The translations under genes were made by a program, and so were the position numbers. Under the pieces are notes generated by a model. The model did not search any database. It had not been told where the DNA came from and worked only from the letters and a program-made list of their open reading frames with translations. Shown here piece after piece: positions 282 to 7,719 of a stretch of DNA of 8,635 bases (positions are counted from its first letter, which is position 1; every line of letters begins with the position of its first letter). Source of the stretch: an uncultured delta proteobacterium (GTDB lineage Bacteria > RBG-13-61-14 > DRUE01); assembly GCA_903930515.1 (NCBI GenBank), contig CAIYYW010000051.1, positions 1 through 8,635 on the forward strand, given 5' to 3'.

Positions 282-1997
282 ATGAGGTTAAAGAGGGTCC
301 TAGTTACGGCGCTGTTGTTATTCTCGGTTCCGGCTTTCGGGGGAGAGTTGCGGTTGAGCCTTCGCCAGGCGATTGAGCTGGCCTTGATCAACAATCCGGA
401 GTTGCGCAGTTCGCGGCTGGACCTGGAAATCTCGCAGGCGTCTCTGATCCAGACCCGGGCGAATTACGATCCCTACTTTCAAGTCAGTTCCAATTTTTCC
501 CATTCGGAGCAGCCCACCAGCCAGCCGGCCTTCGGGACGGAAAACGAGAATATGAGCGTGAATTTCAGCACCGGGGCCTCCACCCCCTCTGGGGGCAATG
601 TCTCAATTGATTTCCAGAACCAGCAGCAGAAGTCCAATTCCTCGTTCGTGACCTTGAACCCAAGCTGGAATGTCAATTTGGGCCTGAATTTTTCACAGCC
701 GATCTTAAAGGGCGGCCTGATGGACTGGCGCAAGGACGAGATCAAGAAGAAGATGAACGATTACGCTCAGTCCGAGATCAGCCTGAAGGCCAAGGCCCTG
801 GAGATCGCCTCTCGGGTGGAAGACGCTTATTGGTCTTTGGTCCGGGCGAACCTGGAATACGAGATCAGCCAGAAGAGCCTGGAGCGGTCGGAGTCCATGG
901 TCAAGCTGACCGAGGCCCAGGTCCGGAACGGGATCAGCCCCCAGGTGGCCCTTCTCCAGAGCCAGTCCAACCGGGAGGGCGTTCGCGCCAGCCTGTATCA
1001 GGGAGAGGCGGCCTTGCGGAAAGCTGAGAATAATTTGAAGCAACTGCTCTATTTTGAAACCGAGGAGGAGTTGCTTCTGAGCAAGATCATTCCCACCGAC
1101 CAGCCGCGGGTGGAGCAATACCAGTTTGAGCGCGCTAAATTCCTGGAAAACGCCATGTTGAAGAACTATACCATGGAGCAAATGCGCCTGAATACGGATA
1201 GTATGAAGATTTCAAGCCGCCAGAGCAGGAACCAATTGTTTCCGCAACTGGATTTCAACAGCGGGTTCAGCATCGCCGGCCTGGCCGGCGATTCCAAGCC
1301 GAGCACCCAGTTGATCCAGACCGGGTTCGTGATCCCCAATCCCTTTCCGACCCCGCAGCCGTATATGCTGGAATACAGCACGCTTACCCAGGCGGAGAGC
1401 GACCAGGAAGGGGATTATTTTGACGCGGTGAGCCGTCTGCTGGACGGTAATAATTTGAGCTATCAGGTGGGGTTGACCTTCAAGATTCCGATTGGGAACC
1501 GCTCGGCTCAAAGCCAGGCGCGGATGTCGGAATACAACCTTCAGAAAACCGAGCTGGAGTTGGCCCGGCAGCGGCGGATGATCCGGTTCAACCTGGACAG
1601 TCTGCTCGCGGATTTTGAATCCACCTATAAGGCCTGGCAGGCGAGCAAGCTGGCGCGGGAACTGGCGGACAAGAGCTACCAGATTGAGAAGCGCAAGTAT
1701 GAACTGGGGATGAGCACCCAGTATCAGCTCCTGGACCAGGAGCAACAATTTAAAGAAGCGGGAAAGAATGAAATTTCCGCGCTGATTGAATATAATAAAT
1801 CCATCGGAAGGATTAAGCGCGCGGAGCAGGGATATTTGGAGACCGGGGGAATTCCCAGCGTCTCTATGACGGGGATAAACCTCTCCGGGATCTCATCCTC
1901 CAGCGCGCTCAAGGGGCTGCCTTCCAATCTTAGCGGAATGCTCCCGAGCGGGGTTGATGTCAATATGCTGAAAGGTTTGGGGATAAATATACCGTGA
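282..1997 (+). CDS. TolC / OEP-family outer-membrane channel protein
   Basis: Predicted 571-residue member of the outer membrane efflux protein family, which forms trimeric beta-barrel and alpha-barrel conduits for efflux pumps or type I secretion. ATG 282 is preferred over the in-frame TTG at 246 because it gives a clean signal peptide (MRLKRVLVTALLLFSVPAFG). The first half opens with the family signature LSLRQAIELALINNPEL (about residues 26-42). A beta/loop segment follows (about 65-135), then FSQPILKGG, then long helices (about 150-257) containing EDAYWSLV and LLQSQSNREGVR. The second half has a barrel strand YQVGLTFKIPIGNR (about 394-407) and a helical hairpin (about 410-520) with RKYELGMSTQYQLLDQEQ. 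About 45 Ser/Gly/Leu-rich residues extend beyond the usual fold. No adaptor or pump gene is adjacent in the window, so the substrate is unknown. The gene overlaps the next one by 4 nt. Confidence 0.9.
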   Translation: MRLKRVLVTALLLFSVPAFGGELRLSLRQAIELALINNPELRSSRLDLEISQASLIQTRANYDPYFQVSSNFSHSEQPTSQPAFGTENENMSVNFSTGASTPSGGNVSIDFQNQQQKSNSSFVTLNPSWNVNLGLNFSQPILKGGLMDWRKDEIKKKMNDYAQSEISLKAKALEIASRVEDAYWSLVRANLEYEISQKSLERSESMVKLTEAQVRNGISPQVALLQSQSNREGVRASLYQGEAALRKAENNLKQLLYFETEEELLLSKIIPTDQPRVEQYQFERAKFLENAMLKNYTMEQMRLNTDSMKISSRQSRNQLFPQLDFNSGFSIAGLAGDSKPSTQLIQTGFVIPNPFPTPQPYMLEYSTLTQAESDQEGDYFDAVSRLLDGNNLSYQVGLTFKIPIGNRSAQSQARMSEYNLQKTELELARQRRMIRFNLDSLLADFESTYKAWQASKLARELADKSYQIEKRKYELGMSTQYQLLDQEQQFKEAGKNEISALIEYNKSIGRIKRAEQGYLETGGIPSVSMTGINLSGISSSSALKGLPSNLSGMLPSGVDVNMLKGLGINIP

Positions 1998-3703
1998 ACG
2001 GTTTCAAGAAAAATCTTTGGGGCGCATTGGTCCTGGCCGCATTGAGCGTTTCCTGCGGAAAGGTCATCAGCGACAGCAATGAGACTCTCAAGGTCAAGGG
2101 CCTCTGGGACCTGACCGTTTTCCGTTCCGACCCGGATGTGATCAACTACCTGGTGGAGGTGGTTGAGGGCGGCGGAAGCGGCATTGCGGTGATCAAGGTT
2201 TACAGCAACCTGGGGGACAATTCCGGGCCGGATATTGTGAACGCCGGAGCGCCGATCGGGCTGGGCGCCTGCGGAGTGGAATTGACCTTCTCCGACAGCG
2301 TGAGCGGGCCGCTGAGCCTGAACCCCGGGGACCGCTGGAACATCGTGGTCGCGGACAAGATCATTTACGCGCCGGAGGCGGACGCGGATAATCTATCGGT
2401 GGCCGCGATCTCCGCGGGCGGGGCTTATACCTGCCTGGATGCGTCCTGTAATGACGGTCTGTATAATACGATGGTCCCGCTCTCTTATGACGCGAAGGTG
2501 GGGAGCGGCCTGAAGGAATTTGAGCTGCCCCAAGTCAAGGTCAGCCAGACCGACGCCAATTTTTCAGGAACGGTCCCGGAAGAGGCCATCCTTTCGCTCT
2601 GGCTGACGGGTCATCAGCGGAAAGAGGAAATCCAACTTTGCTATAAGCGGAAACTGCATGCGGAACAGGGGACCAATTATTTCCGGGTCCGGCTCGCGGA
2701 CGCGCATAGGTATTTGCTGCTGGAAAACAAGTCCGGGAACAAATTTTCCACTCGGGAGGAAACGGTTTGCCATAGTTTCAGGCCCCAGGCCAAGGAAGTC
2801 CGGATTGACTTCATCTTCGGCCTGTCCAATTTCAACAGCGAGGCCCGGCTGGACGACCTCCGCGAGCGGATCGCAGGCTCCACCGTTTTCAGCTACAACT
2901 TTGAGAGCGGCGACCTGCTCAACGACTTGGGCCCGGGCAAGCTCCGCTGGCAACTCCGGGTCCCCGCCTATCAACAGGGAGACGCCCTGGTCAGCAACTT
3001 ATTGCCCCTGCAAGGGAATTACAGCTTCCGGGCCCTGGGCGGCAGAAGCCTTCCCCTCAACGGCTCAATCCTGGAGCAGTCAAGCACCCAGATGGCCAGC
3101 TTGCTCGGACAGGTTCCCGGGATGAATATTTCCGGGGTGCTGTTGGAAATCTTTGATAATAAAAAAGGCGGTTATTTCTCAACCCTCTCCGGCGCCATTC
3201 AGGGAGAGCAGGCCATCCTCGGAACCTTCACCGGCGAGAAGACGGGCTGCCAGGACCGGGGCCAGTTCATTGTCGCGATCAACCAGGGAAATATTTTCCC
3301 GGTGAACCAACCCTGGACGATGAGCCTGGTGGGCCAGGCCCAGAATTGCCGGAAGGTCGGCAATTTCCGGGAAGCCTTTGTGCCCTTCCGCCCGGTCCAG
3401 AAGGCCGACCGTTTCTATACCAGCGAGACCCTGCCGGTGCTGGACCGGTACTTGAACGCGTATCAGTTGAACGGACGCGAGATCGGGACCGCGCTCTATT
3501 TTATTTTGGAAGATTACAACAAGGTGGACTACCGGAACGCGCTCTTCTCCGGGATCATCAATCCGGTTCCGGACCAGGGCGATTCCACCACGGCTCCTCA
3601 GCCGAATATTGTGGGAACCTTTAACGGCTGGCTGGGATTTAAAAACGATTCCAAATGCCAGGCGAACGGGACTTTCCAGGTTTTTTTCCCAGCCGCCCCA
3701 TGA
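1994..3703 (+). CDS. Large predicted lipoprotein A, paralogue of the next gene
   Basis: 569-residue predicted lipoprotein of no family I recognise. GTG at 1994 overlaps the TolC stop (GTGA), suggesting translational coupling; the upstream Shine-Dalgarno is weak. The N-terminus (MNGFKKNLWGALVLAALSVSC) has a basic start, a hydrophobic core and Cys21 as probable lipidation site, although the usual Leu at -3 is replaced by Ser. The mature part looks beta-rich: WDLTV (38-42), GDRWNIVV (112-119) and VPEEAIL (194-200). An LDDL strand (286-289) followed by FSYNFESG (299-306) resembles the boundary of jelly-roll, carbohydrate-binding-like domains; GGRS lies at 349-352. The C-terminal 200 residues hold two copies of G-x3-G-x(n)-C-x3-G-x-F (410-425 and 541-561) around a W-x5-G-x4-C element (441-452). 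These features recur in order in the next gene, so the two are diverged tandem duplicates. Likely envelope-anchored; function unknown. Confidence 0.8.
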   Translation: MNGFKKNLWGALVLAALSVSCGKVISDSNETLKVKGLWDLTVFRSDPDVINYLVEVVEGGGSGIAVIKVYSNLGDNSGPDIVNAGAPIGLGACGVELTFSDSVSGPLSLNPGDRWNIVVADKIIYAPEADADNLSVAAISAGGAYTCLDASCNDGLYNTMVPLSYDAKVGSGLKEFELPQVKVSQTDANFSGTVPEEAILSLWLTGHQRKEEIQLCYKRKLHAEQGTNYFRVRLADAHRYLLLENKSGNKFSTREETVCHSFRPQAKEVRIDFIFGLSNFNSEARLDDLRERIAGSTVFSYNFESGDLLNDLGPGKLRWQLRVPAYQQGDALVSNLLPLQGNYSFRALGGRSLPLNGSILEQSSTQMASLLGQVPGMNISGVLLEIFDNKKGGYFSTLSGAIQGEQAILGTFTGEKTGCQDRGQFIVAINQGNIFPVNQPWTMSLVGQAQNCRKVGNFREAFVPFRPVQKADRFYTSETLPVLDRYLNAYQLNGREIGTALYFILEDYNKVDYRNALFSGIINPVPDQGDSTTAPQPNIVGTFNGWLGFKNDSKCQANGTFQVFFPAAP

Positions 3704-3706
3704 ACC

Positions 3707-3713
3707 AAAGGAG
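3707..3713 (+). promoter_or_regulatory. Shine-Dalgarno that fixes the start of lipoprotein B
   Basis: AAAGGAG ends 7 nt before ATG 3721. It rules against the in-frame upstream starts at 3655 and 3700, although ATG 3700 overlaps the preceding TGA as ATGA. The start at 3721 also places a lipoprotein signal peptide exactly at the N-terminus. Confidence 0.8.
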
Positions 3714-3720
3714 TAAGAAA

Positions 3721-5397
3721 ATGAAGAAGAGCCTGATCGGCCTGTGGGCGCTTTCCCTGCTGCTCGCTTTTTCCTGCGAACAATCAAGCAGCTCCGGCGG
3801 GGGAATTTTTGGCGCAACAGCAACCGCCGCCACCGAGACCCAGACCTGGAATTTTATGCTCAACCCGATCCTGGGTCTGGAGAAATACTATCTCAAAGTG
3901 GAGATCTCGGGCGGGAACGGATCCGTGATTTCGGCAAGGATGGTCTCGGGCGGGTCCGAGACCGCGTTGGGAAACTTCTCGGTTTTTGACGGCCTGGACC
4001 TTCCCCTTGCCGACAACGGTCCGGTGGTCAAGTTCAGCAATAGCGGCGGGTTCAATTTGGTCGCTCCGGACGAGTGGGTGATTATGGTTGACTCCGGACG
4101 GTTGGTGGGGGTTTTCCCCACCGGGCCGAATACCAGCACGGCCGCGCTTTCGCTGGTGTCGGCGCCGACCCCGGTCAAATGCAAATACGGCCTGTTCACC
4201 GGGTTCCCCAACCTGACCTTCACCCTGGGCGGGGTGCCCCAGAAAATCTCCGCGCTCGGGATGCAGGTGGAATCCAGCGGAAGCCAGGTGCAGGGGGAAA
4301 TCCCGGAGACTTCAATCTTGATGTTCTCCACCGGGTATCCGCTGGTTCCGGGTTCAAGCAAGGTGGTGGAGCAAGGCGATTCCGTGAACGTCAGCTACAC
4401 CCGCGAGGTGGTTTCCGACGGACAGGGCGGGGATTATTTCGCGATGGTCGTGACCAATAACCGGACCAGCCAGGTCCTGGACGGAGTGCAGGCGGCGAGT
4501 GCGGGCAAGACCAGGGTGAGCCAGACCTTCGTTGCCAACGGAGATTTCTTCGGCGTGCAACTGGTCTCGGCCTTGAGCGGGAATCGCGATTCAATCAAGA
4601 TTGACGATTTCCAGGTCAAGATCAATAAGCAGATGGTGTTCCAGGAAAATTTTGAAGGACCCGGTTTGAAGCTCGGGTTTCCTGATTATATCTGGCAAAC
4701 CGCGCAGCCGGCCACGATGCTGGGCTCGGACCAAATCTGCGGACATCATCCCCTGGCGGGGACCCAAAGCTTTTGCTTCAAAGGCGGCCGCAGCTTCTCC
4801 CTTTACGGACAGGGAGCCAGCGTGGGCGGGGTTGAGGGGATGGAGTTCACCTTTGCGGACGGGAATATCGCCCGGAGCTACTTTGTCGGATCCTTTATGG
4901 GGATGCTTTCTGATTCGGTGATGCTCGGGACATATTCGGGAAGGAACTATGACAAGTCCTGCCAGGAACAGGGCGCCTTCATCAACCTGGTCAACTCCAG
5001 CCAGACCCCGGACCTGGAAGGGACCTGGGATTTGAATATCAACGGCGAACTCAAGCGTTGCGATAATCCCGCGGATCAGGGGGCGGTGAAGATCAAGATC
5101 AATGACATTCCGGTCTCGCAGGCCGGTTCCTTTTTCGGAGGAGTCCTGATCGCGCCCGATGTCCCGGATGCCAATGGCAACACCGTCGCCGGCTCGGGAA
5201 TCATCAACGGCCAATCCCTGATCTACACGGTGGCCACCAAGGTTCCCGCCACCGGCTTTTACCGGCTGAGCCTGAACGGGATCGCCGGCGCCAGGCCGAT
5301 CACCGGCCAGGTGATGGGTTGGAGCGCGAGTAACCCGATCTTGCTGTTCCAGACCTGCGACCTGGAAGGAAGCTTTAAACTATCCATTTCGCATTGA
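3721..5397 (+). CDS. Large predicted lipoprotein B, paralogue of the preceding gene
   Basis: 558-residue predicted lipoprotein, start chosen from the AAAGGAG box 7 nt upstream. The signal peptide MKKSLIGLWALSLLLAFSC gives Cys19 as lipidation site, followed by a Ser/Gly linker (22-28). As in lipoprotein A, the lipobox lacks Leu at -3 (Ala here, with Leu at -4). The mature protein parallels its neighbour: TWNF (42-45), DEWVIMV (117-123), IPETSIL (194-200), IDDF (294-297), FQENFEG (307-313), GGRS (355-358), G-x3-G-x(n)-C-x3-G-x-F at 403-420 and 529-552, and W-x5-G-x4-C at 436-447. Identity is otherwise low, so the duplication is old or the pair evolves fast. The IDDF and NFEG elements resemble edges of jelly-roll or lectin-like domains, but I cannot name a family. 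No catalytic motif is visible. It probably shares a transcript with the TolC-type gene; a surface or periplasmic binding or structural role is inference. Confidence 0.8.
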   Translation: MKKSLIGLWALSLLLAFSCEQSSSSGGGIFGATATAATETQTWNFMLNPILGLEKYYLKVEISGGNGSVISARMVSGGSETALGNFSVFDGLDLPLADNGPVVKFSNSGGFNLVAPDEWVIMVDSGRLVGVFPTGPNTSTAALSLVSAPTPVKCKYGLFTGFPNLTFTLGGVPQKISALGMQVESSGSQVQGEIPETSILMFSTGYPLVPGSSKVVEQGDSVNVSYTREVVSDGQGGDYFAMVVTNNRTSQVLDGVQAASAGKTRVSQTFVANGDFFGVQLVSALSGNRDSIKIDDFQVKINKQMVFQENFEGPGLKLGFPDYIWQTAQPATMLGSDQICGHHPLAGTQSFCFKGGRSFSLYGQGASVGGVEGMEFTFADGNIARSYFVGSFMGMLSDSVMLGTYSGRNYDKSCQEQGAFINLVNSSQTPDLEGTWDLNINGELKRCDNPADQGAVKIKINDIPVSQAGSFFGGVLIAPDVPDANGNTVAGSGIINGQSLIYTVATKVPATGFYRLSLNGIAGARPITGQVMGWSASNPILLFQTCDLEGSFKLSISH

Positions 5398-6207: not shown

Positions 6208-7719
6208 ATGACCATTAATATCGGAGAATTCCTGACCAAGCGCGCCCGGCTCAGCCCGAAGCAAGAGGGACTGGTCTGCAACGATTTGAGGATGACCTTT
6301 GAGCAAATGAATTGGCGCGCGAACCAGTTGGCGCATGCGATGCAACGGCTCGGGGTCGGGCCGGGCGACCGGGTGGCCCTGTTCGCGCTCAACGAGCCGG
6401 AATACTATGACCTGCTCTTCGGCCTGGGCAAAATCGGCGCGATCCTGGTCCCGGTCAATTACCGGCTGGCGGCTCCGGAGATTGTTTACATCCTTTCCGA
6501 TTGCGGAGCCAAGGTCTTGGTCTTCAGCAAGGAATATTTGGAGATCGTCAATACTTTTCGGAGTCAGCTCCCTTCCCTCAAACTGATCGCGATCGCGGAC
6601 CATACGCCGGAATGGGCGGAGTCCTATCCGAAACTACTGGATCAAGAATCAACCAAGGAGCCCGCCATCACCGGAGGCGGAGACGATGTCTTGTCCATAC
6701 TCTACACCTCCGGAACCACCGGCCGTTCCAAGGGCGCCCTGCTCACTCATAATAATTATTATTGCACCTCGGTAAGCCTGCATGTCACCCTGGGATACAC
6801 CGGGGAAATATTTCTAATCCCCCTGCCCCTGTTCCACATCGGCGCCCTCGGCGGCGTGCCTATGTTCATTCACCTGGGACAGAAGAGCGTGCTGCTCCGG
6901 AGCTTTGATCCCAAACGAATGCTGGAATTGATCCGGGACGAGAAGGTCACCGGCTTCGGCACGGTGCCGGCCATGCTTATGTTCCTGAAGCTGGTTCCCG
7001 GTTTTGAAAAGTATGACTTCAGTTCGGTGAAGATCATCCTGGTTTACGCGGCCCCGGTCCCCGTGGCCTTGATCAAGGAGTATGCCGCGGCCGGGATTGA
7101 AATCCGGCAGCTTTACGGCTTGACCGAATGCACCGGGCCGGCCTCGGTGATAGATTCGCAACATGCCATCAGCAAAGCCGGCTCCTGCGGCCTGCCCATC
7201 TTCCATAGCGAGATCAAGCTGGTGGATGATCAGGGCAAAGAGGTGGGGCCGGAAGAACTGGGAGAAGTCCTGCTTAAGTCCGAGAATGTGATGAAGGGAT
7301 ACTGGAACCGGCCGGAGGAGACCAGGAACGCCATTATTGACGGCTGGCTCTGCACCGGAGACCTCGCCAAGAAAGACCGCGACGGGTTCCTATATATCCT
7401 GGACCGCAAAAAAGATATGATCATCTCCGGCGGAGAAAATATCTATCCCGCGGAAATAGAAGACCTGCTCCTGCATAACCCCAAAGTGGCCGACGCGGCC
7501 GTGATCGGATATCCCGACCCCAAATGGGGCGAGGCGGTCAAGGCGATCGTGGTGCTCAAAAAAGCGGAACAGCTCACCGAGCAGGAACTGATTGCCTGGT
7601 GCCAGGATAAAATCGGCAAATATAAAATCCCAAAAAAAGTCCTCTTCGCCGACTCCATCCCCCGCACCGCCACCGGCAAAATCCTCAAGCGCGAACTCCG
7701 GGCGCAATATAATAAATAA
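6208..7719 (+). CDS. AMP-forming acyl-CoA synthetase (fatty-acid-CoA ligase-like)
   Basis: 503-residue member of the ANL adenylate-forming superfamily. These enzymes activate a carboxylate with ATP to an acyl-AMP and transfer it to coenzyme A, in the cytoplasm or at the membrane. All core motifs are intact: the phosphate loop YTSGTTGRSKG (166-176), YGLTE (303-307), GWLCTGDL (379-386), the hinge region DRKKDMIISGGENIYPAEIE (399-418), and PRTATGKILKREL with the catalytic Lys491. Length and motif order fit medium/long-chain fatty-acyl-CoA ligases, but O-succinylbenzoate- or aryl-CoA ligases share them, so substrate is open. ATG 6208 is preceded by AAGGAG with a 7-nt spacer. The 43-nt gap after the TPR gene permits co-transcription, but a functional link is not evident. 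The reading frame is complete; the insertion sequence begins 34 nt after its stop. Confidence 0.93.
   Translation: MTINIGEFLTKRARLSPKQEGLVCNDLRMTFEQMNWRANQLAHAMQRLGVGPGDRVALFALNEPEYYDLLFGLGKIGAILVPVNYRLAAPEIVYILSDCGAKVLVFSKEYLEIVNTFRSQLPSLKLIAIADHTPEWAESYPKLLDQESTKEPAITGGGDDVLSILYTSGTTGRSKGALLTHNNYYCTSVSLHVTLGYTGEIFLIPLPLFHIGALGGVPMFIHLGQKSVLLRSFDPKRMLELIRDEKVTGFGTVPAMLMFLKLVPGFEKYDFSSVKIILVYAAPVPVALIKEYAAAGIEIRQLYGLTECTGPASVIDSQHAISKAGSCGLPIFHSEIKLVDDQGKEVGPEELGEVLLKSENVMKGYWNRPEETRNAIIDGWLCTGDLAKKDRDGFLYILDRKKDMIISGGENIYPAEIEDLLLHNPKVADAAVIGYPDPKWGEAVKAIVVLKKAEQLTEQELIAWCQDKIGKYKIPKKVLFADSIPRTATGKILKRELRAQYNK

Follow-up and report, generated by a model that had tools for sequence, protein, structure and literature searches.

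What two adjacent genes for large lipoproteins do in the bacterial phylum RBG-13-61-14 is the question raised by the window, that is, the whole stretch of 8,635 nucleotides analysed here. The original prediction saw in these genes, here called A and B, a tandem pair of unrecognised paralogues that arose by an ancient local duplication and yielded a two-component envelope protein set, perhaps a heterodimer. For the phylum ('Candidatus Coxosiota'), three genomes of 3.65–4.74 Mb are listed, originating from freshwater and subsurface sediment (PMC11382960). The genomes compared are labelled G000 (the genome of the window), G001 (same genus) and G002 (another family of the phylum); the other two match the records CAIUDS01 and MGQK01, the latter being Deltaproteobacteria bacterium RBG_13_61_14. 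The genes for an outer membrane efflux protein (OEP), A, B, a TPR protein and an AMP-binding ligase all lie on the + strand of the window. Promoter and terminator scans gave no signal beyond chance level, and searches for RNA families and tandem repeats found none.

Table 1. Features of the OEP-A-B locus, in window coordinates.
Feature	Position	Strand	Basis or remark
OEP (TolC family; outer membrane efflux protein)	282..1997	+	PF02321 in two stretches, E 8.1e-42; first gene of conserved unit
Conserved OEP C-terminal peptide MLPSGVDVNMLKGLGINIP	1938..1994	+	Follows variable Gly/Ser/Leu-rich linker
Lipoprotein A, 569 aa	1994..3703	+	GTG start overlapping OEP stop (GTGA)
A, predicted signal peptide and lipidation Cys21	1994..2056	+	Sequence; Cys aligned in 6/6
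A, residues 192-304, predicted MAM/CBM-like jelly-roll	2567..2905	+	Z 12.1, rmsd 3.2 Å over 131 residues to InhA2 (4yu5); pLDDT about 54-73
A, residues 432-569, predicted eight-stranded avidin/lipocalin-type barrel	3287..3700	+	Z about 8-9.7 to Cap15 and avidins; pLDDT about 46-69
Shine-Dalgarno-like AAAGGAG preceding B	3707..3713	+	Sequence
Lipoprotein B, 558 aa, paralogue of A	3721..5397	+	ATG start
B, predicted signal peptide and lipidation Cys19	3721..3777	+	Sequence; Cys aligned in 6/6
B, residues 193-304, predicted MAM/CBM-like jelly-roll	4297..4632	+	Z 9.1, rmsd 2.7 Å over 109 residues to InhA2; pLDDT about 39-80
TPR protein with N-terminal membrane helix	5463..6164	+	PF07719, E 2e-21; 60% identity to G001 counterpart

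Two reading frames of similar length (569 and 558 residues) were found where the original prediction placed them, and the landmarks that it had matched between the two proteins stand at the residues it gave: GDRW with W115 in A and DEW with W119 in B, VPEEAIL and IPETSIL both at 194, LDDL at 286 and IDDF at 294, NFE at 302 and 310, and GGRS at 349 and 355. By blastp, A and B align with 82 bits (E 1e-20, 24% identity across 438 residues), compared with a top score of 28 bits among 2000 shuffles of B. A profile–profile comparison had been named as the check, with a non-significant score as its refutation; hhalign matched the A profile to the B profile (three sequences each) from end to end over 520 columns, with a probability of 99.9 and E 1.3e-36. 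Identity between A orthologues is 61% within the genus and 34% across families, and that between B orthologues 57% and 31–35%, whereas A and B share 21–28%. Because orthologues exceed the A-B values, and the branch separating A from B has 100% bootstrap support in a six-sequence tree, the duplication is older than the divergence between these families, which supports the predicted ancient local duplication. Evolutionary rates are similar and constrained for A, B and OEP, with NG86 dN values of 0.30, 0.34 and 0.25, respectively, at dS values of 1.2–1.4 that are near saturation.

Both proteins are predicted to be exported and N-terminally lipidated. They carry the Cys-ending signal peptides that were originally noted (..LSVSC21 in A, ..LAFSC19 in B), and the lipoboxes of the six A and B orthologues end in SVSC, IFSC, LPAC, AFSC, AFSC and GSAC. 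All six members share Cys at four aligned positions, namely that of the lipobox plus three within the C-terminal half. The B protein of G002 (L014:11485-12963) has lost most of its N-terminal region (about residues 50–150) and kept its lipobox, the Cys of which is followed by Asp at +2.

The term 'unrecognised' proved apt, as searches of A and B against Pfam, NCBIfam and PDB sequence profiles returned nothing above cut-off, and no catalytic domain was recognised in either protein. The immune inhibitor A MAM profile PF20773 reached at best 16.1 bits (E 0.0085), in one of the six members, under its gathering score of 26.9 bits. No member matched DUF3828 at E values up to 1–5. A Slam translocon, which would combine TPR with a barrel and mark Slam-dependent surface lipoproteins of the TbpB type, was likewise not found adjoining A and B: the neighbouring TPR protein has 233 residues and no recognised barrel domain, and its match to TPR_Slam is sub-threshold (18.7 bits versus a cut-off of 35.2).

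Structure models predict that A and B are all-beta. Mean pLDDT is 43.5 for A and 36.8 for B, and the models are poor overall because only three sequences per family are available. The best-modelled part of each protein is a jelly-roll at about residues 192–304, for which the InhA2 MAM domain was the top match from each model independently; meprin MAM domains and carbohydrate-binding modules came next. Predicted folds had been proposed as a further check on paralogy; A and B agree in the jelly-roll, the only domain with a usable model, but the models are otherwise weak, and the fold comparison for B covered the jelly-roll only. The predicted jelly-rolls resemble the MAM domain of immune inhibitor A (4yu5/4yu6), but no protease domain was recognised in A or B and the remainder of the protein differs. 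Residues 432–569 of A recall avidin/lipocalin-type barrels and the barrel lobes of TbpB in being predicted to form eight strands with a conserved Trp on the first, but there is no sequence match, and the Z scores of up to 9.7 are close to those that common arrangements and unrelated barrels attain. In an internal-repeat comparison, the last part of region 300–436 was similar to that of the C-terminal barrel (hhalign probability 77 over 49 columns, E 2e-5), and no real score was obtained between the N-terminal and C-terminal parts. Possibly, the jelly-roll is inserted into a first barrel, the two parts of which flank it.

A and B are both present in all three genomes of the phylum; whether the pair is kept together had been named as a further check. 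The G001 assembly breaks inside B, one contig ending within the gene and another starting at the next residues, and we infer the tandem arrangement in that genome across the break. Outside the phylum, no credible homologue of A or B was found in about 780 genomes, which comprised a spread of 287 and a further 195 and 299 from two other phyla. This absence is provisional, given that the genomes are only a sample and that narrow patterns were used for scanning. In contig scans, the B query found no homologue, and the A query matched two members of the phylum only. One match among the 287 genomes (in G151, E 2e-4) is probably due to chance; the surrounding stretch was read as phage-tail genes. 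A and B constitute a new, lineage-restricted lipoprotein family, not a new kind of biology.

The OEP gene directly precedes A in all three genomes. The OEP stop and A start overlap as GTGA in G000 and as ATGA in G001, and are separated by a 16-base gap in G002. Upstream lies a PIG-L deacetylase gene in G000 and a PfkB kinase gene in G002; downstream, the TPR protein is encoded in the genus (G000 and G001) and a methyltransferase in G002. The G000 PIG-L gene was identified through its G001 orthologue, which itself lies on another contig with no OEP match. Gene order is therefore kept only within OEP-A-B, and the flanks differ between the two bacterial families. A two-component envelope protein set, as originally proposed, is plausible; the OEP, however, is a third component of the conserved unit. 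Neither the adaptor nor the transporter of a tripartite pump adjoins this unit in G000 or G002, nor does an ABC transporter.

The OEP encoded in this cassette carries a secretory signal peptide and has no Cys residue in two complete orthologues and one partial orthologue that lacks its N-terminal part, so it is not lipid-anchored. Past the second OEP repeat, it ends in a tail with the consensus MLPSGVDxxMLxSLGIxLP, of which 12–15 of 19 residues are identical among the three cassettes. Of the other OEPs in the phylum genomes, nine were read and none has this tail; searches elsewhere gave no convincing score. The best-looking outside match, in G205, was attributed to chance and falls at the start of a gene read as IMP dehydrogenase. 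By analogy with TolC, the C-terminus of the cassette OEP would be periplasmic, and the tail could consequently be a docking site. A Pro-rich OEP stretch (TGFVIPNPFPTPQPYMLEY...EGDYFDA; window 1320-1450) is nearly identical in all three cassettes and is probably an extracellular loop.

The strict linkage, the overlap of the OEP stop with the A start, the missing lipid anchor of the channel and the tail specific to it are most simply accounted for if A and B are dedicated outer-membrane lipoprotein partners of the upstream TolC-family channel, a reading to which we assign a probability of about 0.4. A and B, themselves predicted to be lipid-anchored, would then accompany, anchor or serve the non-lipidated OEP as its dedicated partners, and their divergence suggests that there are two binding sites or ligands, which are not equivalent. 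Such a mode of working would parallel that of YbjP with E. coli TolC, with an unrelated fold. YbjP, whose lipid sits in the outer membrane, binds to non-lipidated E. coli TolC on the periplasmic side, a partnership described only in 2025–2026 and in Enterobacterales (PMC13082787, PMC13095208). Like YbjP, A and B are lipoproteins, lineage-restricted and associated with a non-lipidated TolC-family protein, here by gene linkage. Unlike YbjP, which is a small alpha+beta DUF3828 protein, they are about 560 residues long, predicted all-beta and without a DUF3828 match, and they are two paralogues within the channel's own operon. The analogy serves as a lead only, because YbjP is dispensable for efflux and most bacteria with a non-lipidated TolC have no such partner (PMC13082787, PMC13095208). 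With only three genomes, moreover, the linkage could partly reflect an operon that was inherited undisturbed. In E. coli, Asp at +2 is an inner-membrane retention signal, which counts against channel partnership for the B protein of G002.

The chief rival to channel partnership is that A and B are surface-exposed or periplasmic binders of a ligand (a glycan, a protein or a small hydrophobic molecule) that merely share the channel's operon; they might, for example, bind the exported substrate of the channel or a sediment polymer. The predicted MAM/CBM-like jelly-roll of both proteins and avidin/lipocalin-like barrel of A suggest ligand binding for which a channel is not required, and so argue against partnership. 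The lack of a recognised catalytic domain is also consistent with a binder, and the three C-terminal-half Cys residues common to all six members fit an exported, disulphide-bearing protein. However, the structure models that suggest these folds are of low confidence, jelly-rolls and barrels serve protein–protein contacts too, and the OEP-specific tail is left unexplained. Ligand binding apart from the channel is a tentative alternative, one that we consider doubtful but credible.

The operon order, a channel followed by two exported proteins, could also mean that A and B are cargo that the adjacent channel carries to the cell surface. Type I export through TolC bypasses the Sec and lipoprotein pathways, to which the lipobox signal peptides of A and B would direct them, and no ABC transporter or adaptor was found adjoining the genes in G000 or G002; export as cargo is very improbable. 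An obligate A-B heterodimer that is independent of the channel would agree with the retention of both proteins in every phylum genome and with their similar evolutionary rates, but the loss from G002 B of about 100 N-terminal residues that A has kept speaks against it, and we regard it as improbable.

A more specific form of channel partnership, in which two diverged all-beta lipoproteins, combining a MAM-like jelly-roll with a barrel, dock on the non-lipidated channel through its C-terminal peptide, would represent a second TolC–lipoprotein solution, after YbjP, that is phylum-specific, convergent, heteromeric and operon-encoded. This composite proposal is unlikely as it stands. If A and B do partner the channel, by whatever mode, a co-encoded, unrelated pair of partners in a deep candidate phylum would mean that TolC–lipoprotein partnerships arose more than once, and OEP-A-B offers a set of linked genes and a putative docking peptide with which to test this. 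If A and B merely bind ligands, they add one more lineage-specific lipoprotein family.

The remainder of the window contains the end of the PIG-L type deacetylase gene (2-163), with paralogues in all three phylum genomes, and an AMP-binding acyl-CoA ligase-like gene 3′ of the TPR gene (6208-7719, + strand). Transposase pieces lie at the contig end (7820-8568, − strand), as an HTH_Tnp_1 orfA-like gene and then a short fragment.
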